Shown: positions 4,519-17,485 of the stretch, in pieces
Numbering within the stretch: the first letter of the stretch is position 1
How the letters are laid out: each line of letters begins with the position of its first letter
Source: Anaerolineae bacterium
GTDB lineage: Bacteria; Chloroflexota; Anaerolineae; B4-G1; SLSP01
Length of the DNA: 28,303 nucleotides
Direction: 5' to 3'
Assembly: GCA_016934645.1 (NCBI GenBank)
Contig: JAFGSL010000328.1
Location: 1 to 28,303, forward strand
The notes under the pieces: generated by a model
What the model saw: the letters and a program-made list of their open reading frames with translations, nothing else
What the model was told of the DNA's origin: nothing
The model's database searches: none
Position numbers and translations under genes: made by a program

Positions 4519-4553
4519 GCCATAGATTTATGGAGCTTGAAAGGGGAAAAACA

Positions 4554-5105
4554 ATGAGTGAGTTGAAAGGGTTTGGGTTAGCGTTGGCCGAGCATCTGCC
4601 AGGATGGGAGTTCGATACGGCGTATTGGCAGGACAGGCACCAGCGCTTTGCGCGATTGATGAATGCGGATATTCCCGGCGCGTGCGTATACGTGCAGTGT
4701 GCGCGGGGCCGCGCGGAGATCTCGGGTGGGTACCCCGATGGGTTCCATCCGCGCACTGAGGAAGACGTGCGGATTACGGTGAGTATGGAGCGCGAAGTGG
4801 AAGCCGTAGCGCGTGACATCGAGCGGCGCTTCCTGGGGACTTACCTGGAGAAGTTCCACGCAGCGATGGAAATCGCATACCGGGTGGCGCAAGCACAGGT
4901 CAAGACGCAGGATGTCGCCGACGAACTGGCGACGATCCTAGGGTGCAGTGCCCGGCACGACCGCGACAGATCTTCGATATGGTCCCGGCATGGGGCGTTA
5001 CACGTAGCGTGCGGCTCGGAGGGCCCATACATTACGGTGGAACGGTTGTATGGCCTGTCGGTGGAGCTGGCGAAGGCCATAGCGCGGGTAATGGCGCAGG
5101 GCTGA
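4554..5105 (+). CDS. Hypothetical phage protein
   Basis: A 183-residue soluble protein, not recognised. The N-terminal half looks like a small alpha/beta domain (LPGWEFDTAYWQDRHQRFARL, then ACVYVQCARGRAEISGGYPDGF), the middle is helical (EREVEAVARDIERRFLGTYLEKF) and the end is another alpha/beta stretch. An in-frame ATG exists at 4530, but GAAAGGGG lies between it and 4554, so 4554 is the better start. It has its own terminator 16 bp after the stop. Transcription probably reads through from parB across the palindrome. Confidence 0.6.
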   Translation: MSELKGFGLALAEHLPGWEFDTAYWQDRHQRFARLMNADIPGACVYVQCARGRAEISGGYPDGFHPRTEEDVRITVSMEREVEAVARDIERRFLGTYLEKFHAAMEIAYRVAQAQVKTQDVADELATILGCSARHDRDRSSIWSRHGALHVACGSEGPYITVERLYGLSVELAKAIARVMAQG

Positions 5106-7036: not shown

Positions 7037-7432
7037 TCAGTCACTCAGAGCTATTGATTCATCTACACCGAGAAAGTCCAGCGCTTCTGCAATTTCTCGA
7101 AATACCTTGATTTCAAGTGGCCGATGTTCCGACAGTATTTGCCACATGCGCATAAATCCATAGGTGACGGCCCTGTCCGCCACGATTGCCACTTTAGCCC
7201 CTTCAACCCGATCGTTGAATGAACTATCCTTCGTGACCCCAAATCTTATCTCATCGTAACTGAAGTCAATCAGGCTACATGTACGCAGGTCGTATAGAAC
7301 ATTGTAACCCAGCATCCAACGTTCATCAGCGAGCATCTGCCGTGAGGCTGTCTTGATTTGTTCCACGTCGACTTGCTCGCGTCCGGTGAAAACACAGAGA
7401 CGATAATCGGGGAAAATCTCGTAACTGAACAT
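7037..7432 (-). CDS. STAS/SEC14 (SpoIIAA-like) domain protein
   Basis: A 131-residue single-domain protein, the only convincing minus-strand gene. The pattern matches small SpoIIAA-like/SEC14-type proteins: an opening strand (MFSYEIFPDYRLCVFTG), a helix, GYNVLYDLRTCSLIDFSYDEI, a central strand (KVAIVADRAVTYGFMRMW) and a closing helix ending in EALDFLGV. Such proteins bind small ligands or partner proteins and are not enzymes. AAGGGG lies about 10 nt before the start codon on that strand. It is convergent with radC and divergent from the CHAT-NB-ARC gene; its A/T-richer composition matches that gene, so the two may have arrived together. Confidence 0.65.
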   Translation of the reverse strand: MFSYEIFPDYRLCVFTGREQVDVEQIKTASRQMLADERWMLGYNVLYDLRTCSLIDFSYDEIRFGVTKDSSFNDRVEGAKVAIVADRAVTYGFMRMWQILSEHRPLEIKVFREIAEALDFLGVDESIALSD

Positions 7433-7819: not shown

Positions 7820-7916
7820 TCACCCCAATACATAATTTGAGAGACCAAAGGTATTGCCTCTCGCCAAGTCGATGATTTTAGCACAAGATTCAACAAAAGT
7901 AGTTTATGGGGGAGAA

Positions 7917-10900
7917 ATGTCAATCAGTAAATATACTGACCTCGAAATCGAATTCAGTCATCGTGAAGGGAATGAATACGAAATCCGACTCAGGCTCCGT
8001 CAACCTGAGAGACCTGTCGTTATTTATAAAAAAAAGGGGCTGACCGAGATTGATGTAAAGGATTGTGCTAATTTGGTCAATCCGATCGAGCACGGCAAAG
8101 CCTTGAGTAAGAGTCTGTTCACAACAGAAATCCTGACTTATTTCATACGGGCACGTGAGAGTGCTAGATCCCAAACCCCCCCAGTGCCACTACGCGTGCG
8201 TCTCTGTTTCGACTGGGAGGATACTAAGCTGCACGCTCTGCATTGGGAGACTCTTTGTGATCCTCTGAATCCTGGCACTTTCTTGTCTACAGATGCGAAC
8301 ATTTTACTCTCGCGTAATCCGCCAGTAGAGGATAGCAAAAGCGTCAGCCCAAAATCCAAAGGCAATCTGCGAGCATTAGTAGTGATCGCTAATCCAATCA
8401 ATCTTAGCAATAAGTGGAATCTGTCGCCAGTAGACGTCCTAGGTGAGTTGGCCCGTGCGCAGAATGCACTAGCAGAATTCGCGAATCTTACTGCACTCTA
8501 CCGTGCCGAAAAGCAAGGGGCTGTTGTTTGTGACGGACATCCGACATTTGCCAACCTAATCAGTCATCTGCGTGAAGGCTATGACATCCTCTACCTGGTA
8601 GCTCACGGCAAGGTGAGCAAGGACAGGCCCTATATATTACTGCTTGAGGATGAAGATGGTTGTCACGAATTAGTGGCAACAGAGGACTGGAAAGGACCCT
8701 ACGGTGAGTATGCTGTTGGTCTCATTACAAGTCTACGCCAAAGTGTGACAGAATTACCTCGCCTGATTGTGCTTGCATCTTGCCAGAGTGCCGGAGAGGA
8801 CGAAATTTGTAGTCACGATGAGGGCGAATTGAGTGCCTTGGGGCCTGCATTGATCAAAGCCGGTGTGTTATCGGTGATTGCGATGCAGGGTAATATCACA
8901 ATGGAGTCAGTTGAGCAATTCACCCCTGAATTTTTCAGAGAACTGGATCGCGATGGCCAGATTGATCGTGCAATGGCGGCTGCGCGGATTAAACTGATCC
9001 TCCACCATCGCCCTGACTGGTGGATGCCTGTCCTTTTTATGCAACAGGAAGACGGACGAATATTCGCTGATGATGTTCCACTACCTATCATGCAGGCCCC
9101 CCGCCTTCCAGATCAGTATGTCGAACGCTTGGACGAATTGAGGTGTTTGAAGAAAAAGCTTCTTCCTGGAAAAACTGGTGGTCCACTGCCAGTGTCCAGA
9201 GTTATTCTGCACGGTATGGGTGGCTTGGGCAAGTCAGCTATGGCTGCAGCCTTTGCCCGTGATAAAGAGGTCCAGAATGCCTTTCCCGATGGCATTTTGT
9301 GGGTAACACTTGGCAAAGAACCGGACTTGCCTCAGCGCCTTGCCCGATGGGGACTTGAGTTAGCAGCTCCAAAAGATTTAACTATTTTCAATAGTGCTTA
9401 TTTTGATACACAGGCACGCAGAGACAAGTTACGCGATTTATTGGAGGACAAAGTTTGCTTGCTAGTAGTGGATGATGTTTGGGAAGAAGATCATGTCGAA
9501 CCCTTCTCAGTCGGTGGATCAAAATGCTTGTTGCTGATCACCAGCCGCGAGGCTAATATGTTAGACGGGGCAATCCCTATCCCATTGAACAAGATGACCG
9601 AGGCAGAAGCTCTTGCGTTGATGGCCAACTGGGCGGGGGGAATTCCGGACACAGATCGGGATACGGCTAGCAAGCTTGCGGAGGGGGTTGGCTATTTACC
9701 ATTGGCTTTGAAACTCATCGCGGCACAAGCTACGCCCTTGAGAGGTGGATGGCAGGAAATTTACGAGCAGTGGAAGGAGCACAAGTTGCAGGTTGTCAAG
9801 CGTGGTCGTGAGCCGAAAGATGATAAAGAGGATAGTCTAATATGTTCTCTCGAGTTGAGTTGGGAGAGACTGAAGGAGGAAGACCAGAGATTGTATCGGC
9901 AGTTGGGCGTTTTTCCTGAAGATGCCCCCTTCCCTCTGACTGCGGCTGCAGCGCTTTGGGACTTGGAAGTGTCTGAAGCTAGAAAAGTCCTGATCGACTT
10001 CGCAGAGCAAGCATTGCTAACCTCGTATATAGTGGATGGGAACCAATGGTATGCTTTTCACGATGTCCTGTATGAGTTCGTATCAGGTCACTTAAGGAAA
10101 AACGGAGAGTTAGAACAGACCCATGCAAAGCTGGTTGCTGGTTACTCAAAGCGTTGCCGTGGCATGTGGGTTGAGCTGGAATCTGATGGCTACATTCACG
10201 ACCACCTGGCATGGCATATGTACAAGGCAGGACTGCTAAAGGAGCTATATGCCCTCATCGATAAACCTTGGAAGAATGCTCTATTCGATCTCACTTTTTC
10301 TCATCGCACTTTTGTTGAAAACGTCGATCTGGCTATTAAGGCTGCTAGTAAAGAAGAACCGATCAATTGGGTGCAACTGGTGCGCGGTTGCCAGCTTTAC
10401 GCTAAGCTGCACTCAATGGCGACCAGTGTACCGCCTGAAGCGTTAGGCGTCCTAGCACAGACTGGCGATCCGAATTTGGTGAGGAAGGCGGCCATCGATT
10501 ATGCCACTTTGATCTGGGACACCAAACAACAGCGTCGCGCATACAGACTGATTGGTGAAGCGTACATCAACCGGGGAGAAATGGAAGAGGCAAAAAAAGT
10601 GCTGGAGCTTGCGTTAGCATCAGCGAGTACTATTGAGGAAGACAGTGATAAGGGGTATGCACTAGTTGAAGCAGCGAAGGCGCTCGCACAGGTGGGGGAC
10701 GTAGAAACATTACGGAAGACCCTAACAGCTACGGAAGGTATAGGAGATGAACAGTGGAGAGCAAGAGCACTGGCCGAGATATCCCAGGCACTCGTGCAGG
10801 TGGAGGATGCGGAAATCTTGCGACAAGCGCTGGAACTCATCCAAGCTATTGAAAGTGAGGAGTGGAAAGCATATGCGCTAGGCGAAGTATCCCAGGCACT

Positions 10901-13523
10901 CGCGCAGATGGGGAATGTAGAAATCTTGCGACAAGCGCTGGAACTCGTGCAAGCTACTGAAAGTGAAGAGTGGAAAGCACATGCGCTGGGCGAGATATCC
11001 CAAGCGCTCGCGCAGGTGGGGGACGTAGAAATCTTGCAACAGGCGCTGGGACTCGCGCAAGCTATGGAGTGGAAAGCACAGGCATTACGTAAAGCGGCCC
11101 GCGAGAGACTGGGCCAGGAGGATGTCGGGGATGTGGAAGCACGTCGGTTAGCGCGGGTGAAGGCGAAAAAAATTGAGAATAATGCGCCGCATATAGTGTA
11201 TGCACTTAGTAGGATAGCTCAGGCGTTGGTTCAGGTAGGACAAGACAGTGCAGCGATCCAAGTTGTGGAACAGATACTGGAAGGTGAGGGAGCCGAAGTG
11301 TGCACTAGGGATGATTGCAGCCCGCAGGTGTTAATTACGGTGGCACAAGTGATGGTGGGGGTGGGGAAAATAGAAGAACTGCGGCATATTCTGGAGATAG
11401 CATATAAGATCCGGGATCAAGGGAAAAAAGCGGCTGCCCTAGCCGGCATTGCTCAGGCGTTGGCACAGGCCGGAGAACAGGAAGCGTCCGTCCAGGTTGC
11501 ACAACAGGCGCTGAAAGCGGTAAAAGCAATTGCGGCTGAATATGAGTTGAGACATGGGACCAGGGAGGGAGCAGTCTACAGTGGATATACAATAGGCTGG
11601 ATAGCTCAAACATTGATACAGGCGGGCGAACAGGAAGGACTGCAAGAAGTTCTATCGGTAGTGAAAATGATTAAGGGCGGAAGGAACAGAGCAGAGGCAC
11701 TTAGTGGAATAGCCCAGACCCTGGCCAAAACAGGTGAAGTAGAAACCCTGCAACAGCTACTAACAGTCGCGCAAGATAGTGAGGATGAGACAACAAGAAA
11801 CCTAGCATTGATCAAGGTGGCCGAGGCGCTGGTCAAGGAACAGACTCAGGAAGCTGCCACTCATCAAGCACTAAGAATGACGCTGGCAAACTTGAATAAC
11901 CTAGTAGGCGAGGGGTGGAAAGCAGATTGGCTAGGTAGAGTGTTGCGGATGGTGCCCCAGGTTAAGGATATTGAAGCACTTGGGCAAGCTCGTAAGATCG
12001 CAGAAGGTATGGAAGATGGAGATCACAAACTGCAAGCATTGAGCTACGTGGCGCAAGCACTGCTCCAGATCGGGAATATAGAGGAAGCAAGACAAATAGC
12101 AAGAAAGGTGCTGACGGCAGCCGAAACAACCGCAGATGATAGAGTAAACGAATCAACTTGGCTGGATGGAATAGCGCAATCGTTAGCTCAGATTGGAGAA
12201 ATGGAGGTGCTTCAAAAGGCATTGAGAGTCGCGCAGAACATTAAATACGGAAGAGCAGCCGCGATGTGGCTGTTAATCGGTAAGGCGAAGACCTTAGCCC
12301 GTGATGGAGCTACAAAAAAAGCAGGGCGTATGATGGTTGAAGCATTGAAAGCAGAGCATTGGGATCCAAACTGGTTGGATGCAACACTGGAACTAGGAGA
12401 CGTGTGTAGAATCTTAGTACAAGTCGGAGATGAAGAACCGCTTTTGTGGATACTCAATATGATGGGAAAAAGTAAAAATCTCGGGGGTTTCCGAGCTGAA
12501 ATCGTGAGTCATATAGCCCTGGCATTAGCACCAACGGGTGATATCAGAGCGCTTTGGTACGTATTGTCGATAGCAAAAAACTGTCAAGGAGGGACACACT
12601 ATAGTTATATAGCCAAAGAGCTGAGTGCAGTGGCGCGGGCCTTTATACAAGTCGGAGAGATAGAAGCCCTACAAGAAGTGCTAGAAGCAATTGAAGAGAT
12701 TCCAGAAGTGTACACTATCAAGGCACGGAGCGAGATAGCACAGGCACTGGCCCAGGCCGGAGAGATCGAAACTGCTGCTCAGATAACACACCGAGTACTA
12801 GAAATAACAGATCCTATAGCAGGTTCTATTGATGACAAGGAGCGTGTAAGGGCATGGATTGAAATTCTCCAGGCTTTGGTACAACTTGGTGAGTTCGAAA
12901 CTGCAAACCAGGTGCTAGAGCAAATACGCAAGGTAGCGCCATTCTATAGTGGCGAGGCATCTGAAGTGCAAGCATTGCTTGAATGTGCCAAAGGTCTAGC
13001 TCACATCGGAGAGATGGAAGAAGCTGCGCAAACAGCACGATCCGCACTCGAAATTGCGACAGAGACTAGAAATGCAAGTGTACTGGGTGAAGTAGCACAG
13101 GTGCTAGCGCAGTTGGGACAAGTTGAAGAATTGCGAAAGACATTGAGAACCACAGAAAATATTAAGGACCTACGTTTGAGAGCGGAAGCATTAGGCAAAA
13201 TAAGCCAAGCTTTGGCTCAGATTAATGAAGTCGAAGCGCTGAAAGAAGTATGGGCAACAGCCAAAACGATTGGAAGTACAAAGTATAAAGCAGAGGCATT
13301 CAACAGGATAGCTCCGGCTATACTCCAAACGGGACAAAAGATAGACGCAAACGCTTGGCAAGCCCTCCAAGACGCGTTCGAAGAGGCTAGGCTGATTGGA
13401 TGCAGGAGTGTATTCGACGTGCTACAAAACGGGAGCACTATACTGGCAGCTATTGATCGTGGCCAAACATTGTGGGAAGTGTGCGATGCCACGATGGAGG
13501 TAGAGCGTTGGTGGAAAAGCTAG
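7917..13523 (+). CDS. CHAT protease - NB-ARC (STAND) NTPase - helical repeat protein, NLR-like
   Basis: An 1868-residue protein built like an NLR. Residues about 1-140 are an uncharacterised N-terminal part. About 150-400 is a CHAT caspase-like domain with VAHG (His230) and LASCQS (Cys289) as catalytic dyad. About 425-720 is an NB-ARC module with P-loop GMGGLGKS (Lys439), Walker B LLVVDD (Asp519, Asp520), an LLLITSR sensor, GYLPLAL and a winged-helix end FHD (His715, Asp716) in the place of the MHD motif. About 835-1868 is an array of 36-residue helical-hairpin (TPR-like) repeats that probably sense a ligand. Such STAND proteins are typically inactive until the repeats bind a trigger, then oligomerise and free the effector, here a protease; several families defend against phage. 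The ATG at 7917 has GGGGGAG just before it; an upstream TTG at 7854 lacks one. It is A/T-richer than its neighbours, consistent with acquired cargo. No separate CHAT substrate gene is seen nearby. Confidence 0.9.
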   Translation: MSISKYTDLEIEFSHREGNEYEIRLRLRQPERPVVIYKKKGLTEIDVKDCANLVNPIEHGKALSKSLFTTEILTYFIRARESARSQTPPVPLRVRLCFDWEDTKLHALHWETLCDPLNPGTFLSTDANILLSRNPPVEDSKSVSPKSKGNLRALVVIANPINLSNKWNLSPVDVLGELARAQNALAEFANLTALYRAEKQGAVVCDGHPTFANLISHLREGYDILYLVAHGKVSKDRPYILLLEDEDGCHELVATEDWKGPYGEYAVGLITSLRQSVTELPRLIVLASCQSAGEDEICSHDEGELSALGPALIKAGVLSVIAMQGNITMESVEQFTPEFFRELDRDGQIDRAMAAARIKLILHHRPDWWMPVLFMQQEDGRIFADDVPLPIMQAPRLPDQYVERLDELRCLKKKLLPGKTGGPLPVSRVILHGMGGLGKSAMAAAFARDKEVQNAFPDGILWVTLGKEPDLPQRLARWGLELAAPKDLTIFNSAYFDTQARRDKLRDLLEDKVCLLVVDDVWEEDHVEPFSVGGSKCLLLITSREANMLDGAIPIPLNKMTEAEALALMANWAGGIPDTDRDTASKLAEGVGYLPLALKLIAAQATPLRGGWQEIYEQWKEHKLQVVKRGREPKDDKEDSLICSLELSWERLKEEDQRLYRQLGVFPEDAPFPLTAAAALWDLEVSEARKVLIDFAEQALLTSYIVDGNQWYAFHDVLYEFVSGHLRKNGELEQTHAKLVAGYSKRCRGMWVELESDGYIHDHLAWHMYKAGLLKELYALIDKPWKNALFDLTFSHRTFVENVDLAIKAASKEEPINWVQLVRGCQLYAKLHSMATSVPPEALGVLAQTGDPNLVRKAAIDYATLIWDTKQQRRAYRLIGEAYINRGEMEEAKKVLELALASASTIEEDSDKGYALVEAAKALAQVGDVETLRKTLTATEGIGDEQWRARALAEISQALVQVEDAEILRQALELIQAIESEEWKAYALGEVSQALAQMGNVEILRQALELVQATESEEWKAHALGEISQALAQVGDVEILQQALGLAQAMEWKAQALRKAARERLGQEDVGDVEARRLARVKAKKIENNAPHIVYALSRIAQALVQVGQDSAAIQVVEQILEGEGAEVCTRDDCSPQVLITVAQVMVGVGKIEELRHILEIAYKIRDQGKKAAALAGIAQALAQAGEQEASVQVAQQALKAVKAIAAEYELRHGTREGAVYSGYTIGWIAQTLIQAGEQEGLQEVLSVVKMIKGGRNRAEALSGIAQTLAKTGEVETLQQLLTVAQDSEDETTRNLALIKVAEALVKEQTQEAATHQALRMTLANLNNLVGEGWKADWLGRVLRMVPQVKDIEALGQARKIAEGMEDGDHKLQALSYVAQALLQIGNIEEARQIARKVLTAAETTADDRVNESTWLDGIAQSLAQIGEMEVLQKALRVAQNIKYGRAAAMWLLIGKAKTLARDGATKKAGRMMVEALKAEHWDPNWLDATLELGDVCRILVQVGDEEPLLWILNMMGKSKNLGGFRAEIVSHIALALAPTGDIRALWYVLSIAKNCQGGTHYSYIAKELSAVARAFIQVGEIEALQEVLEAIEEIPEVYTIKARSEIAQALAQAGEIETAAQITHRVLEITDPIAGSIDDKERVRAWIEILQALVQLGEFETANQVLEQIRKVAPFYSGEASEVQALLECAKGLAHIGEMEEAAQTARSALEIATETRNASVLGEVAQVLAQLGQVEELRKTLRTTENIKDLRLRAEALGKISQALAQINEVEALKEVWATAKTIGSTKYKAEAFNRIAPAILQTGQKIDANAWQALQDAFEEARLIGCRSVFDVLQNGSTILAAIDRGQTLWEVCDATMEVERWWKS
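10755..11100 (+). repeat. Near-identical 108-bp tandem repeats inside the NLR-like gene
   Basis: The phrase TGGAAAGC (TGGAGAGC in the first unit) recurs at 10755, 10863, 10971 and 11070. The period is 108 bp (36 codons); the last step is 99 bp because three codons are missing. Units share long nearly identical DNA stretches (AAATCTTGCGACAAGCGCTG in two, one change in the third), unlike the diverged repeats further on. This points to recent duplication or gene conversion. Confidence 0.85.
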
Positions 13524-13647
13524 CGCGACTTCAGATAGCTAGCTATGCTTATAGTAGCAAAATGGAGACACGTTAACTATCATTTGTAGAAGGTGATAGA
13601 TAGCCAAGGAAGGACTTCAAGGCCGCAGTTTTGATCGGAAAATGGCC

Positions 13648-13663
13648 GTTAATTTGACTTAAC
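13648..13663. promoter_or_regulatory. Operator candidate, copy 2 (GTTAA-N6-TTAAC)
   Basis: GTTAA (13648-13652), TTTGAC, TTAAC (13659-13663), flanked by GGCC and TGGCGTTAA as in copy 1. It ends 25 bp before the TTGACA of the strong promoter at 13689. 13524-13640 holds nothing recognisable beyond a 12-bp palindrome at 13535-13546. Confidence 0.5.
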
Positions 13664-13688
13664 TGGCGTTAATGGCAGGCAAGGGTTA

Positions 13689-13716
13689 TTGACATAGCTT
13701 GACATATATGTATAAT
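13689..13716 (+). promoter_or_regulatory. Near-consensus sigma70 promoter (late promoter candidate)
   Basis: TTGACA (13689-13694), 16 bp, TGTATAAT with TATAAT at 13711-13716. Both hexamers are exact consensus, making this the strongest conventional promoter in the window. A second TTGACA at 13699 is too close to the -10 to serve. It precedes a structured RNA and then the modification, lysis and head genes. Confidence 0.8.
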
Positions 13717-13722
13717 TAGAAC

Positions 13723-13949
13723 ATAAGTTCTGGATTTTTACCCAAGGGAAACGGGTTAAAAAATTGCGCTTAGTGGGTTACAGAGCTACTAGCTGCGATA
13801 ATCGGTTCAAATCCGACGGTGAGGTAGCTCAAGCCGTAATCGCCCTACACGGTCGAGCGGGGTGGAAGGCCTCCGCAAACCAATAGGCCGATGATGGTCT
13901 GTCAGCGACACAGATTCCGGGGCCAGCGTTTATAACGCTGGCCCCTTTT
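13723..13949 (+). ncRNA. Structured leader or small RNA with a tRNA T-arm-like hairpin
   Basis: About 227 nt between a consensus promoter and an intrinsic terminator with no open frame. Visible structure: TTTACCC/GGGTTAAA near the 5' end; GAGCTAC (13783-13789) pairing with GTAGCTC (13824-13830), enclosing TCGG-TTCAAAT-CCGA (13802-13816), the sequence of a tRNA T-arm; TAGTGGGTTA (13771-13780), like a tRNA D-loop; GGCCT (13868-13872) with AGGCC (13885-13889); then the block CAGCGACACAGATTCC directly before the terminator. No acceptor stem or anticodon arm fits, so it is not a tRNA. The terminator lies 18 nt before the next gene, so this is probably an antitermination leader or riboregulator of the late operon. 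A free small RNA with a tRNA-mimic domain, as in bacterial Y RNAs, is the main alternative. Confidence 0.55.
13919..13949 (+). terminator. Intrinsic terminator in front of the ParB-like gene
   Basis: GGGGCCAGCG (13919-13928) and CGCTGGCCCC (13936-13945), a perfect 10-bp stem, followed by TTTT. Only 18 nt separate it from the next start codon, leaving no room for another promoter. Confidence 0.9.
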
Positions 13950-13967
13950 CGTTTCTAAGGTGCTAAA

Positions 13968-14684
13968 ATGGATCAACCTGGCGACAACACAGTAAAGGAT
14001 ATCCAATCCCTCGCCGACCTGGAACTCGACGGAGACAACGCAAATCTGGGAACGGAGCGGGGGATGTGGACGCTACAAGAGAGCGTCATTCGCTTCGGCG
14101 TGGGACGGGGGATCGTGGTGGACCGGCGCGGGCGGGTGATCGGCGGCAACAAAACCACCGAAACATTGGAAAAGCTCAATCCCGGAGTGAAGGTCGTCGT
14201 AGTACCGAGCGACGGTGATACGCTGGTGGTGACGCAGCGCACCGATTTGGACCTGGTTGAGGATCCAGCGGCACGGGAATTGGCCTTCGCCGACAATCGT
14301 GTGGGTGAGTTGAACCTGGCGTGGGATGCGCAGCAGATCGCGGCGGGGATGGAAGCCGGGCTGGACCTGGCGGCGTTCTTCCGGCAAGGAGAGTTGGACA
14401 ATCTGGCGTTACCGGATGATGCACTGACCGGAACAAAGAAGGGATCAGACGCAGATCTAGTCCCTGAGATGGAAGTACAGCCCTTTGAGCATTACGATTA
14501 CGTGATGCTCGTGTTTCGGAATACGTGGGATTGGGCGCGCGCGGTAGACGTGTTGGACGTCGAGCCGCGCGCGTTTGCGTTTACATCTAGCAAGGGCGAA
14601 AAGCATCGCAAGATCGGGCTGTGCCGGGTATTGGACGGTGCAACATTTTTGCAGAAGGTAGAGCAATGGAAATCAGCGTCGTAA
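13968..14684 (+). CDS. ParB-like (ParB/Srx fold) phage protein
   Basis: A 238-residue protein whose first about 140 residues follow the ParB-like nuclease pattern seen in phage DNA-modification proteins: LQESVIRFGVGRGIVVDRRGRVIGGNKTTE, then a valine-rich strand, DPAARELAFADNRVGELNLAWD and AGLDLAAFF. The usual GERR or GHRR motif is replaced by GGNKT, so CTP-type partition activity is unlikely. The C-terminal about 80 residues (YDYVMLVFRNTWDWARAVDVLDV) form a second domain that I do not recognise. AAGGTG precedes the ATG. It overlaps the next gene by 19 bp, and a glycosyltransferase follows, a context known from phage base-modification operons. Transcription must pass the terminator directly upstream. 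Confidence 0.75.
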   Translation: MDQPGDNTVKDIQSLADLELDGDNANLGTERGMWTLQESVIRFGVGRGIVVDRRGRVIGGNKTTETLEKLNPGVKVVVVPSDGDTLVVTQRTDLDLVEDPAARELAFADNRVGELNLAWDAQQIAAGMEAGLDLAAFFRQGELDNLALPDDALTGTKKGSDADLVPEMEVQPFEHYDYVMLVFRNTWDWARAVDVLDVEPRAFAFTSSKGEKHRKIGLCRVLDGATFLQKVEQWKSAS

Positions 14685-14947
14685 TTCTTACTCATGAGGA
14701 TATGCGCCTGGCTGTAGGGCGATACTTATCTGAAGTGTTGAATGGACAAGTCCAGGTCAATAGCATCAAGACGCTGAAGGGACAGCGTGGTTTTTCCATC
14801 GATCTGGCTATTTTTGAGCCGGTCAATCTCGACGTAGACGCTGCAATGACGTTGCCACCGCAGGGAAACAGTGAAACCAATCCTTTTGCATCAGAGGATG
14901 CACATCCAGGTCATGAGAATCATCATCCCATCGCGAAAGAGGGTTGA
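14666..14947 (+). CDS. Small hypothetical protein between the ParB-like and glycosyltransferase genes
   Basis: A 93-residue protein. The first 60 residues look like a compact alpha/beta domain (MEISVVILTHEDMRLAVGRY, then QVQVNSIKTL, GFSIDLAIFEPV); the last 30 are polar and His-rich (DAHPGHENHHPIAKEG). The ATG at 14666 sits inside the end of the ParB-like gene and has AAGGTAGAG upstream; the protein also overlaps the following gene. This coupling suggests a shared role with its neighbours. Not recognised. Confidence 0.55.
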   Translation: MEISVVILTHEDMRLAVGRYLSEVLNGQVQVNSIKTLKGQRGFSIDLAIFEPVNLDVDAAMTLPPQGNSETNPFASEDAHPGHENHHPIAKEG

Positions 14948-15650
14948 AGCGTGCAGGTACGTACTGCGGATGTTTCCAGGGGCGCTGGTGGTGGTCCACG
15001 AGGAAGAGGTCGCCGATTACGCCGTCCTCGACGCAGAGCTGCTGGCCCATCCGCCCGAGGTGGCCGGGATCGCGCCATTGAAGAACTGGATTCTGGACAA
15101 TGTGCCGGACGAGACGATCTTCATCGTAGACGACGACATCAGCGCATTGAAAGCCATGCCCGGCCGGGCGACGGCCAGCGCGGTGATCCGCGATCCGGTG
15201 GCGATCCGGCAGATTATAGAGAACGCGGAGCAGGGTGCACGGATCCTGGGAACGCCCGTTTTTGGCTTCAATCAGAATGGTGGGGACGTGCGCAAATTCA
15301 AAAATCAGGACCCCTTCGGCTTCAGTGGTTGGGTGGGTGGCGCGATGGGGATCATTGGCCGGGAACTACGTTTCGACTCCCAACTGAAGCTGCGGGCGGA
15401 CATTGACTTTTGCCTGCAAGCGCAACTTAAGTATCGCTGCATCTTCGCCGATTTGCGCTTCGCCTTCGTCGAACAGCGATTTAACAACAGCGGAGGGAAC
15501 GCGCACATGCGCAGCGCAGAGCGCAACCAACGTGAACTGGCGTATTTGCAGCAGAAGTGGGGCAAGTGGTTGAGCATCGTCGAGGGCAAGGGGACGGTGA
15601 TGCTCAAAGTTCACGTCAACCGGCGGCAAAATCTCGTGCTGGTTTCGTGA
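14913..15650 (+). CDS. TET-associated glycosyltransferase-like (TAGT) GT-A enzyme
   Basis: A 245-residue glycosyltransferase of the GT-A fold. It starts MRIIIPSRKR, has the metal/nucleotide-sugar motif VDDDI (72-76) and an acceptor-side segment WVGGAMGIIGRELRFD followed by RADIDFCLQAQ (140-170), as in the phage TET-associated glycosyltransferases that add sugars to modified DNA bases. An earlier GTG (14871) and an ATG (14898) exist, but the family N-terminus and the Shine-Dalgarno spacing favour 14913. No TET-type oxygenase or base-modifying enzyme is in the window, so the acceptor base is unknown; it may lie outside, or the substrate may differ. Its stop overlaps promoter-like element F. Confidence 0.75.
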   Translation: MRIIIPSRKRVEACRYVLRMFPGALVVVHEEEVADYAVLDAELLAHPPEVAGIAPLKNWILDNVPDETIFIVDDDISALKAMPGRATASAVIRDPVAIRQIIENAEQGARILGTPVFGFNQNGGDVRKFKNQDPFGFSGWVGGAMGIIGRELRFDSQLKLRADIDFCLQAQLKYRCIFADLRFAFVEQRFNNSGGNAHMRSAERNQRELAYLQQKWGKWLSIVEGKGTVMLKVHVNRRQNLVLVS

Positions 15651-15693
15651 AATTTCGTGATTGACAAGGGGTGCGCTCTTGTGAGAGAGTGAG
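15641..15693 (+). promoter_or_regulatory. Phage promoter-like element, copy F
   Basis: TTTCGTGAT, TTGACA (15661-15666), 14 bases, GTG-A-GAGAGTGAG (15681-15693). It is the only copy outside 1300-6300 and starts within the end of the glycosyltransferase gene. The leader has AGGAGG before the ATG at 15721. Confidence 0.55.
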
Positions 15694-15720
15694 GACATCA
15701 TTTAATCACAGGAGGAAACG

Positions 15721-16332
15721 ATGGGTTACAGACCTTTTACGCAGAACGGCTATCCGCTGGACGAAATCATCAGCGCGCTACAGAAAGACATCCGGCGCGG
15801 GAAGGAGGAGCAGGCGCTTTACTGGTGCCTGGAGATGGTGCCGCGTTACGAGGCGTATTTATGGCGGCGGCTACTGGTGATCTGCAATGAGGACATCGGG
15901 ATTGCGAACCCCGACATCCTGACGCAGATCGCGGTGCTGCGCGGGCAGTTCTTCGAGTTCCGCGGCGAGGGCAAGGACGGCACGTGCCGGTTGATCCTGG
16001 CGAACGCGATGCTGCTGATGTGCCGCTCGCCAAAAGCACGTACGGCAGATCACCTGCAACGGGTGGTGACGCAGCAGTGGATGGACGAAGCACTACAGGG
16101 CCGACGGGGGATCCCCGATTACGCACTCGACAAACACACACGCCGGGGCAAGGCGCTGGGGCGCGGCTTCGATGATTGGCTGGACGTGGGATGCCGGCTA
16201 GAAAATCCCGGCGAGGTCAATGATCCGTACCGGGAACGCGCCGAGGCATTGTGGCGCGCGGGCAAGAGCGATGCACCGGCGTGGGGGAAGCGGAAGAAGA
16301 GTGGACCAGAGCAACTGAGTATGTTTGGATAA
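15721..16332 (+). CDS. RarA/MgsA C-terminal-domain-like protein
   Basis: A 203-residue helical protein resembling the C-terminal part of the replication-fork ATPase RarA/MgsA without its AAA+ domain. Marks are EEQALYWCLEMVPRYEAYLWRRLLVICNEDIGIANPDIL, corresponding to the 'ARRL...EDIGLADP' core, a later RSPKARTADH stretch and DYALDKHTRRGKALGRGFDDWLDVG. In RarA this region forms the tetramer and contacts SSB and DNA; here it could act as an adaptor on host replication or on phage DNA. It has its own promoter-like element and is followed by a terminator at 16379. The similarity is by pattern only. Confidence 0.65.
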   Translation: MGYRPFTQNGYPLDEIISALQKDIRRGKEEQALYWCLEMVPRYEAYLWRRLLVICNEDIGIANPDILTQIAVLRGQFFEFRGEGKDGTCRLILANAMLLMCRSPKARTADHLQRVVTQQWMDEALQGRRGIPDYALDKHTRRGKALGRGFDDWLDVGCRLENPGEVNDPYRERAEALWRAGKSDAPAWGKRKKSGPEQLSMFG

Positions 16333-16378
16333 GCATATCAACTCTGATACACTTCGGCCTGGCAGCGACAGAGATTCC

Positions 16379-16415
16379 GGGGCCATCACCATAGTCATGG
16401 TGGTGGCCCCTTTTT
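16379..16415 (+). terminator. Intrinsic terminator sharing a 5' block with the one at 13919
   Basis: GGGGCCATCACC (16379-16390) pairs with GGTGGTGGCCCC (16399-16410) with one G-T pair, followed by TTTTT. The bases just before it, CAGCGACAGAGATTCC (16363-16378), match those before the 13919 terminator at all but one position. It lies 31 nt upstream of the lysis cassette, which has no visible promoter of its own. Confidence 0.85.
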
Positions 16416-16446: not shown

Positions 16447-16920
16447 ATGAAGAAGAGGCTATTCGTAATCGCAGGGGTTCTGGTTCTTTCGTTTTTGGCG
16501 GGATGTGTGACGACATCGCCTGGCGTTAGTCCGCTGGCAATGCCGACTTTGCCCGGTAGCGGGCTGGCGGTGGATACAGTGGACGTGCCGACTTTGCCGG
16601 ACTTCCTGGAAATGCTGGCCGGACCGACCGGGTGGGTACTCCTGGGCGCGGTGCTCTCCGCGTTGGTGGCCAAATGGCCATGGTACAACGCGCAAGGCGA
16701 TGTGCTCAAGCGCGGCTTGCTCATCGGTGGCTCGATGGTGATCGCCATCCTCGCACGCCTGGCCTTGACCTACATTCCAGCCACGTTCTGGGAGCAGACG
16801 GCGGCATATTGGTACATCATCGGCGGCACCGTGATCACTTGGTTGGGCTCGCAGGGCTGGTTCCAGGCTATGGTAAAACCGCAGCGGGAGAAAGAACGCG
16901 AGTGGCGCGTGTTGGAGTAG
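16447..16920 (+). CDS. Holin-like membrane lipoprotein
   Basis: A 158-residue protein with a lipoprotein signal (MKKRLF, hydrophobic stretch, LAGC with Cys20) and three further likely membrane segments: GWVLLGAVLSALVAKWPW, LLIGGSMVIAILARLALTY and YWYIIGGTVITWLGSQGW. The tail is charged (KPQREKEREWRVLE). Its position before a coiled-coil membrane protein and an amidase fits a holin or other lysis factor. A lipobox on a multi-span protein is unusual and might instead be an uncleaved first segment. The ATG at 16447 has GAGAGGAG upstream. Confidence 0.65.
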   Translation: MKKRLFVIAGVLVLSFLAGCVTTSPGVSPLAMPTLPGSGLAVDTVDVPTLPDFLEMLAGPTGWVLLGAVLSALVAKWPWYNAQGDVLKRGLLIGGSMVIAILARLALTYIPATFWEQTAAYWYIIGGTVITWLGSQGWFQAMVKPQREKEREWRVLE

Positions 16921-16924
16921 AGCC

Positions 16925-17485
16925 GTGGGTGAGAACGACATCAACGATTTGATCCTAGATCAATTACGCAAGATCAACGAGGAAGTGCGCCGTATGCCAA
17001 AGATCGAGGCGCGCGTCGAGGCTATGCGTGACGCGACGCAGCAGCTCGAAACGGCAATGCGCGAGACGACGGCCGGCCTGCGGATGCAGGGTGAGGCACA
17101 TAGTAAGATGATCAGCGAATTGCAGCTCCAGGTGCACCAGGCGGTGGCGGCATTGACCGCGGTCAGCGGGGATATGCAAGAATTGACTGCGCGGGTGAAA
17201 GATTTAGAGCGGCAGGTTCAGGCGTTGTTCACGCAGCAACAAACGCTTTCGCGTGAGACACGCGAAACAGATGAGTGCCTATCTGACTACCATGACATCA
17301 AAAGCCAGGTAAAAACGCTCTCTGAGGTGGTGCAGACGTTAGTCGAGCAGATGAAAGTGGTGCTTGACTATATCCCCTGGCTGCGCGTACTTAAATACTT
17401 CCTGGTTACGGCAGGTGGACTGGTTGTATTACTGATCATCAGAACAATTATGCAGCTCGTCCTCGAAAAAGGAGTAGTGCCATGA
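16925..17485 (+). CDS. Coiled-coil protein with C-terminal membrane anchor (lysis region)
   Basis: A 186-residue protein: residues about 5-140 are long amphipathic helices (RVEAMRDATQQLETAMRETT, ELTARVKDLERQVQALFTQQ), and one membrane segment is near the end (YFLVTAGGLVVLLIIRTIMQ). The GTG start has GGAG 7 nt upstream. Architecture and place resemble haemolysin XhlA/holin-associated or spanin-like proteins of lysis cassettes, but no specific family is certain. The stop overlaps the amidase ATG by 4 bp. Confidence 0.6.
   Translation: MGENDINDLILDQLRKINEEVRRMPKIEARVEAMRDATQQLETAMRETTAGLRMQGEAHSKMISELQLQVHQAVAALTAVSGDMQELTARVKDLERQVQALFTQQQTLSRETRETDECLSDYHDIKSQVKTLSEVVQTLVEQMKVVLDYIPWLRVLKYFLVTAGGLVVLLIIRTIMQLVLEKGVVP

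Follow-up and report, generated by a model that had tools for sequence, protein, structure and literature searches.

Two box-bearing terminators and a promoter with a structured leader ahead of putative late genes in a group of related phages

In the late leader of phage lambda, the promoter pR' directs synthesis of the 6S RNA up to the terminator tR', which is opened by Q; Q is loaded through a DNA site close to the promoter and a sigma-dependent pause. In systems of the LicT/RAT type, the RAT site overlaps the terminator and competes with it by folding. The put RNA of HK022 makes RNA polymerase resistant to termination by itself. It is described in PMC9378689 as an RNA of about 70 nt with two stem-loops, one copy of which lies behind each early promoter. 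How the phages of uncultured bacteria schedule their late genes is mostly unknown. Here we describe a locus in the window, i.e. the whole analysed stretch of 28,303 nucleotides from an Anaerolineae assembly, and compare it with its relatives and with these systems.

Relatives were collected with the ParB-like protein encoded at the locus. A search with the protein gave 14 loci, and one with an alignment of 22 homologues yielded 64 loci, some contigs contributing more than one. The handles correspond as follows: G002 is L001, L019 and L059; G003 is L002, L024 and L060; G004 is L003, L047 and L061; G005 is L004, L035 and L062; G006 is L005 and L063; G007 is L064; and G412 is L150. At E <= 0.001 the ParB-like protein has 133 matches including itself, with one homologue from an Anaerolineae MAG. 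G001, a Chloroflexi MAG, was used only as the centre of a 400-genome sample of its phylum, in which A1 had no match at E <= 1e-10. Similar DNA in phage and plasmid collections was limited to one and five records, respectively, with short matches that we read as chance. Pattern scans of viral contigs gave no match in one case, ten stretches with two real ones in another, 34 with L019, L024, L035 and L047 as the real ones, three that were all real including the new L150, and eight with three real ones; two stretches matched in genome contigs were both dismissed as chance.

The first promoter, its leader and its terminator

The elements around the ParB-like gene are the following:

13689 to 13716, plus strand: predicted sigma70-type promoter TTGACA-16-TATAAT, 12 of 12 consensus positions
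13719 to 13730, no strand assigned: LexA/SOS-type palindrome GAACATAAGTTC, overlapping the predicted start site
13735 to 13762, plus strand: first leader hairpin, predicted in both the window and L060, which differ by one double change from A-U to U-A
13783 to 13876, plus strand: putative 94-nt RNA domain, its architecture found in separate minimum-free-energy folds of three of four sequences
13883 to 13902, plus strand: possible hairpin AUAGGCC/GGUCUGU overlapping box 1, weak in the consensus fold
13898 to 13918, plus strand: conserved box 1 (CTGTCAGCGACACAGATTCC), abutting the terminator stem, from an alignment of 14 copies from seven phages
13919 to 13949, plus strand: predicted intrinsic terminator 1 with T-run, from a hairpin scan and stem covariation over ten copies
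13968 to 14684, plus strand: ParB-like gene, first behind terminator 1 (phrog_620, E 2.2e-11)

The original prediction of a perfect -35/-10 promoter, a structured transcript of about 227 nt and an excellent terminator that leaves no room for another promoter was borne out in each of these parts. In the promoter scan, TTGACA starts at 13689 and TATAAT ends at 13716 after a 16-nt spacer. Six promoter-like sites between 9000 and 19000 match at least nine of 12 positions, against 6.6 in shuffled sequences, so that ordinary matches mean little; the site at 13689 is the only one above nine, and it alone is perfect. By eye, comparable leader promoters are present in L060 (TTGACA-16-TATAAT), L061 (TTGACT-17-TATAAT), L062 (TTGACA-17-TACAAT) and L064 (TTGACA-17-TACCAT), with a weaker one in L063 (TTGCCT-17-TACACT); the region is lost at the contig end in L059.

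According to PMC3323433, LexA of Bacillus subtilis, and by extension of Gram-positive bacteria, has the motif GAAC-N4-GTTC. The window contains two exact copies (0.41 expected; at least two in 8 of 100 shuffles), at 492 and 13719, both just 3' of a -10-like hexamer. In G003 the motif directly follows the leader -10 (position 77) and recurs at 50121, close to where a small early gene begins, and L062 has it directly after the leader -10 and twice elsewhere; G004 has one copy elsewhere and none at the leader, and L063 has none. This palindrome, overlooked in the original prediction, overlaps the promoter as expected of LexA-regulated promoters, and it suggests that initiation at promoter 1 may respond to DNA damage.

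With a start estimated near 13723, 7 nt 3' of the -10, the leader RNA would measure about 227 nt. Its fold (13723-13950) has a z-score of -2.94, and two of 200 shuffles were equally stable. In the hairpin at 13883-13902, two of seven pairs fail in one of three sequences. Most of the leader is an add-on that several relatives do without: it is long in G002 and G003 as well, and in G004, G005 and G006 promoter, box, terminator and gene are closely packed. This matters for the idea that the transcript of about 227 nt is an independent regulatory RNA acting in trans, with the gene behind it living on incidental read-through. A promoter and a terminator do bracket a structured RNA here; however, G004 and G005 have little beyond box and hairpin after the promoter, the 94-nt domain of G412 follows another reading frame without a strong promoter visible by eye, and the association with the following gene is too constant, so we regard a trans-acting RNA as very unlikely.

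The stem of terminator 1 (13919-13945) has 12 bp with nine G-C pairs and is followed by TTTT up to 13949; the hairpin alone folds at -25 kcal/mol. From the T-run to the ATG at 13968 there are 18 nt, in which the scan found no promoter-like site, and since there is no space for one, the ParB-like gene must be transcribed through the terminator. Among 233 mechanically called ORFs of at least 80 aa in the window, G003, G004, L059, L062, L063 and L064, 15 have a strong terminator whose distance to an in-frame start codon downstream is 8-50 nt, namely all seven ParB-like genes and 8 of the 226 others. The genes behind the second box (see below) in the window, G003 and G004 account for three of the eight; the second copies of L059, L062 and L063 fall outside the count, probably because the stem is interrupted, the start codon lies at the wrong distance or the locus ends. 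As the seven sequences are related, their agreement is not independent, and the covarying stem is the better evidence. Over ten copies all 100 cells of the stem are paired (84% in shuffles), and both sides have changed in five of ten pairs, which 12 of 500 shuffles matched, while the number of further pair types was reached by 74 of 500.

The ParB-like leader of G007 has promoter and terminator and no box. Before the ParB-like gene of L065 no terminator is seen by eye, and a quick look at more distant relatives found one in L072 and, by eye, none in L066, L067, L069 and L070. A further strong terminator hairpin without box lies 18 nt before an in-frame start in G006 (14948-15010; L063:13619-13681). 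GTTAA-N6-TTAAC hairpins occur in the window at 421-449, 13642-13670 and 21886 and four more times in G004, where most of them are followed by a T-run; an operator role for the repeat at 421-449 and 13642-13670 was rejected, as the similar hairpins in G004 look like terminators.

A box common to two terminators

Further downstream, the window contains a second set of elements:

15642 to 15713, plus strand: copy of a repeated early-type promoter-like element between both terminators (repeat family D1)
16325 to 16353, plus strand: possible promoter of the extended -10 type (TTGGAT-17-TACACT), which overlaps the palindrome TATCAACTCTGATA (16336-16349)
16358 to 16378, plus strand: conserved box 2 (CTGGCAGCGACAGAGATTCC; repeat D14, 90% over 30 nt)
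16379 to 16415, plus strand: predicted intrinsic terminator 2 (14 bp) with T-run, from the hairpin scan
16447 to 16920, plus strand: small membrane-protein gene, holin candidate by position, with a homologue behind box 2 in G002-G007

The original prediction had taken the locus for a single late-operon switch. Promoter, leader and terminator stood up to scrutiny; in place of the single switch, the data indicate two or more box-tagged terminators in each phage, the second of which (16358-16415) had been overlooked, along with a LexA-type palindrome. Indeed, a box of about 20 nt with terminator occurs in two copies in each of seven phages (window, G002-G007). R1, a box/terminator model built from ten copies, includes both window copies (13898-13949 and 16358-16415) as training members. 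It found two copies each in G002-G007, i.e. in six of 11 records, the other five giving no full match, weak ones excepted; G004b, G006b, G007a and G007b, four of the 14 copies, were new to the model. The search also returned hairpin-only and reverse-strand matches, e.g. at G006 14948. In 59 loci of relatives it gave five matches at E <= 1, and we accept just that in L064 (G007a) as real. G412 has no box at E <= 5.

In the 14 copies, the box letters adjoining the stem (ATTCCGGGG) are nearly constant, and the 5' part varies between phages and is alike within G005, G006 and G007. Box letters are more alike within than between the seven phages (90 of 5040 permutations as low), and terminator-arm letters are not closer within phages (252 of 720 permutations; six phages, letters typed by hand). 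Because the phages are related and the two boxes of G004 are unlike (8 edits), this within-phage likeness is modest. The spacing from box to stem is nearly fixed, and the distance from the -10 to box 1 ranges from about 10 to about 180 nt. A reading of the box as a peptide leader was rejected by eye, as the copies have no start codon or frame in common.

The sequence ahead of box 2 is less uniform. TATCAN4TGATA palindromes also precede box 2 in G003 and L059 and box 1 in L063, and none precedes box 2 in G004 and G005, where no promoter is visible by eye either. In L060 (2716-2733; same bases in G003) the palindrome before box 2 is TTCGTGATGTATCACGAA, whose half site is similar to TCGTGAT in the promoter-like repeats, and one regulator may therefore read both. 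These 72-nt repeats occur six times in the window (1311, 1454, 3125, 5170, 6213 and 15642) and consist of TCGTGATTGACA followed by GTGMGAGAGTGAG at the -10 position; with a consensus -35 and no usual -10, they may involve an activator or another sigma factor. Early genes follow them, and G003 and G004 have four copies each. The copy at 15642 has the same place in L059 and G003, so that terminator 2 would stop its transcripts in all three.

Box 1 precedes the ParB-like gene in the window and G002-G006, and box 2 precedes a homologous small membrane-protein gene in the window and G002-G007. The nearest gene upstream of box 1 encodes a CHAT/NB-ARC/TPR protein in the window and RadC in both G004 and G005; that of G006 is an unknown. 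Upstream of box 2 the gene differs in G006 and G007, where the MgsA-like gene lies elsewhere, and in G006 the membrane-protein gene of box 2 lies upstream of the ParB-like gene. The other box of G007 stands before a gene for a head maturation protease (E 2.1e-11 in PHROGs; Mu-like_Pro above its cut-off). Since upstream genes swap and downstream homologues are mostly kept, the element goes with the gene behind it. Thus the predicted promoter, terminators and boxes, their conservation and their link to downstream genes can be read from the sequences themselves, and the element seems to accompany mostly late functions, as judged from gene content. The lysis, packaging and head genes that the original prediction placed downstream are there, and promoter, leader and terminator sit ahead of them, where the early-type promoters end.

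The product of 16447-16920 matches no Pfam family and nothing above noise in PHROGs, and its designation as a holin candidate rests on its position, with the amidase gene following at 17482. Its counterpart in L150 has a sub-threshold match to Phage_holin_4_1, and the two proteins have no detectable homology. The ParB-like protein has no Pfam match. Behind its gene, 14871-15650 encodes a protein of the TET-associated glycosyltransferase family (PF20691, with a score above cut-off); this points to a module for DNA base modification. The CHAT/NB-ARC/TPR protein of 1889 aa (window 7854-13523, and 7037-7432, minus strand), which we take to resemble STAND-type signalling or defence proteins, is encoded between RadC and the late promoter; as G004 and L062 have nothing like it there, its gene looks like inserted cargo.

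With 18 nt between T-run and start codon at the first terminator and 31 nt at the second, both modules need read-through, and one box common to both makes a shared factor the simplest account. We are inclined to think, with modest confidence, that both terminators are conditional and are opened by a factor acting in trans, with an SOS-responsive start at the first; regulated read-through by antitermination, a factor recognising the box as RNA and SOS control are what we infer from this arrangement. RNA polymerase would start at 13689-13716, make the leader and normally halt at 13919-13949. During lytic development, a phage or host factor recognising the box of about 20 nt would let polymerase pass the hairpin, which at terminator 1 would open the ParB-like/glycosyltransferase module. 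The same factor at box 2 would open the module of membrane-protein, amidase, packaging and head genes, which terminator 2 would otherwise shield from the early-type promoter at 15642. In some phages, the 94-nt domain would add a further layer of control.

As alternative, the terminators could be leaky and unregulated, insulating modules at a fixed low expression, with the box as a mere conserved part of the cassette. Several early genes of the window are already laid out as gene, terminator, promoter-like repeat, gene; box 2 starts 1-38 nt after the MgsA-like stop codon in the window, G003, G004 and G005; and the searches found no factor. However, the order at box 1 is promoter, terminator, gene, the elements keep the gene behind them while upstream genes change, and a fixed leak needs no box that changes in step at both sites of G006 and G007. 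We therefore think that unregulated leakage is rather unlikely to explain the arrangement.

The search for the proposed factor covered several families. NusG (PF02357) had no match in seven related phage records and matched 11 of 14 control genomes, and a host factor is possible. Antiterm (PF03589) likewise had none in the seven records, which may be fragments, as the window is, and Pfam misses some Q types; Phage_antitermQ (PF06530) matched one of the seven below cut-off, antisense to RadC. Among the 30 window ORFs compared with Pfam no antiterminator family appeared. Two candidate factor genes, 4530-5105 and 838-1056, belong to families of 10 and 9 proteins including themselves, and their models (pLDDT 93 and 79) have no fold match at E <= 0.001.

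The 94-nt RNA domain

The domain at 13783-13876, also overlooked in the original prediction, is common to the window, G002, G003 and G412 (L150). Its likely three-helix architecture comprises P1 (13783-13789/13824-13830), which encloses a T-loop-like hairpin, a short linker, P2 (13833-13837/13849-13853) with a loop of 11 nt, and P3 (13857-13863/13869-13876) with the loop GGAAG or GGAAA; both loops are conserved in the four sequences. P1 has both-side pair changes at several positions, with one pair failing in L060, and the covariance analysis of homologous leaders proposed with the original prediction was thus positive for P1 as well as for the terminator stem. P2 is invariant and hence uninformative on pairing. 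As the z-scores are weak (-0.64 to -1.33), the minimum-free-energy fold of L060 differs from the other three and the whole-leader fold of the window pairs the domain differently, the architecture is likely and not proven.

The model R2 matches the window, G002, G003 and G412, its entire training set, at 69.5-77 bits, once strongly per phage, and the next best match among twelve phage records has 14.2 bits; four of the seven box phages lack the domain. In the 400 genomes, 44 had a match at E <= 0.01; the highest score was 24.9 bits, below the 69.5-77 bits in the phages, and all were dismissed as noise from their scores. G412 has no ParB-like gene; there the domain is followed by a strong terminator and then by another small membrane-protein gene. 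Rfam had no match in the window at gathering score, and E-value scans (E up to 10) of the window, L060 and L150 leaders gave two, five and three matches below it, none resembling the domain. A tRNA search found none, despite the T-loop-like GGTTCAAATCC within the P1 part.

It is conceivable that the domain is a riboswitch-like attenuator that senses a ligand or protein and itself controls the terminator. In three phages it stands directly 5' of terminator and ParB-like gene and in G412 of terminator and membrane-protein gene, with conserved P2 and P3 loops and a covarying P1. Against this, the sub-threshold Rfam matches offer no parallel, terminators occur without the domain in the four box phages that lack it, and there are just four sequences with unremarkable fold z-scores. 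Pairing between the leader and the 5' arm of the terminator was computed for the three long leaders, where the gain is 1.8-7.8 kcal/mol, compared with -22.7 to -25.6 for the hairpin; a competing helix was sought in these leaders and not found. In them the pairing is too weak to open the terminator unaided, so no antiterminator helix is obvious. We consider control by the domain itself improbable, and favour a box-reading factor, with the domain as an addition.

A wider proposal, which we make tentatively and hold to be possible rather than probable, is an undescribed antitermination regulon, in which a terminator-adjoining box at several late modules changes in step within each phage and is read by a new kind of factor, and in which, in some phages, the new three-helix nascent RNA adds to this or substitutes for it as a cis-acting antiterminator.

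Comparison with described systems

The candidate switch points are placed to the base, twice per genome, and phages with and without the 94-nt domain form natural controls, so that reporters are usable. The literature surveyed holds no description of the box or the domain, which does not establish their absence from print. If regulated read-through is true, it would also involve an RNA domain without entry in the Rfam version searched.

As in the LexA-controlled temperate phage GIL01, LexA-type sites lie within phage promoters here; unlike here, a terminated leader is not mentioned in the parts of PMC6182141 and PMC4551915 that describe it, and at the present locus LexA binding is a prediction. 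With put, as described in PMC9378689, the locus shares a nascent stem-loop RNA of a phage with a promoter upstream and terminators downstream, and two related sites per phage. The 94-nt domain, however, has three helices and one copy per phage, at late genes, and what is repeated here is the short box, in which no pairing is conserved. Taken literally, the analogy to a put-like cis RNA in the original prediction therefore fails, the domain being at one site per phage and missing from four of seven box phages.

The likeness to LicT/RAT lies in a short RNA site beside a terminator, which here would be read by a trans-acting protein; in contrast, the box has no conserved structure, and the 30 window ORFs scanned against Pfam include no CAT-RBD family.

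Closest is lambda pR'/tR', as the original prediction had it for layout and position: a strong promoter at the early/late boundary, a short terminated leader, late genes, as judged from their content, and no second promoter before the first gene. Unlike lambda, there are two terminators with a common box that keeps its place beside the terminator and not beside the promoter, a LexA-type palindrome, and no match to a Q family above cut-off among the seven related records, so that membership is not supported, while the locus appears to work like pR'/tR'. If its read-through is indeed regulated, it would represent a form of antitermination in which the recognition element goes with the terminator, and not, as in lambda, with the promoter.
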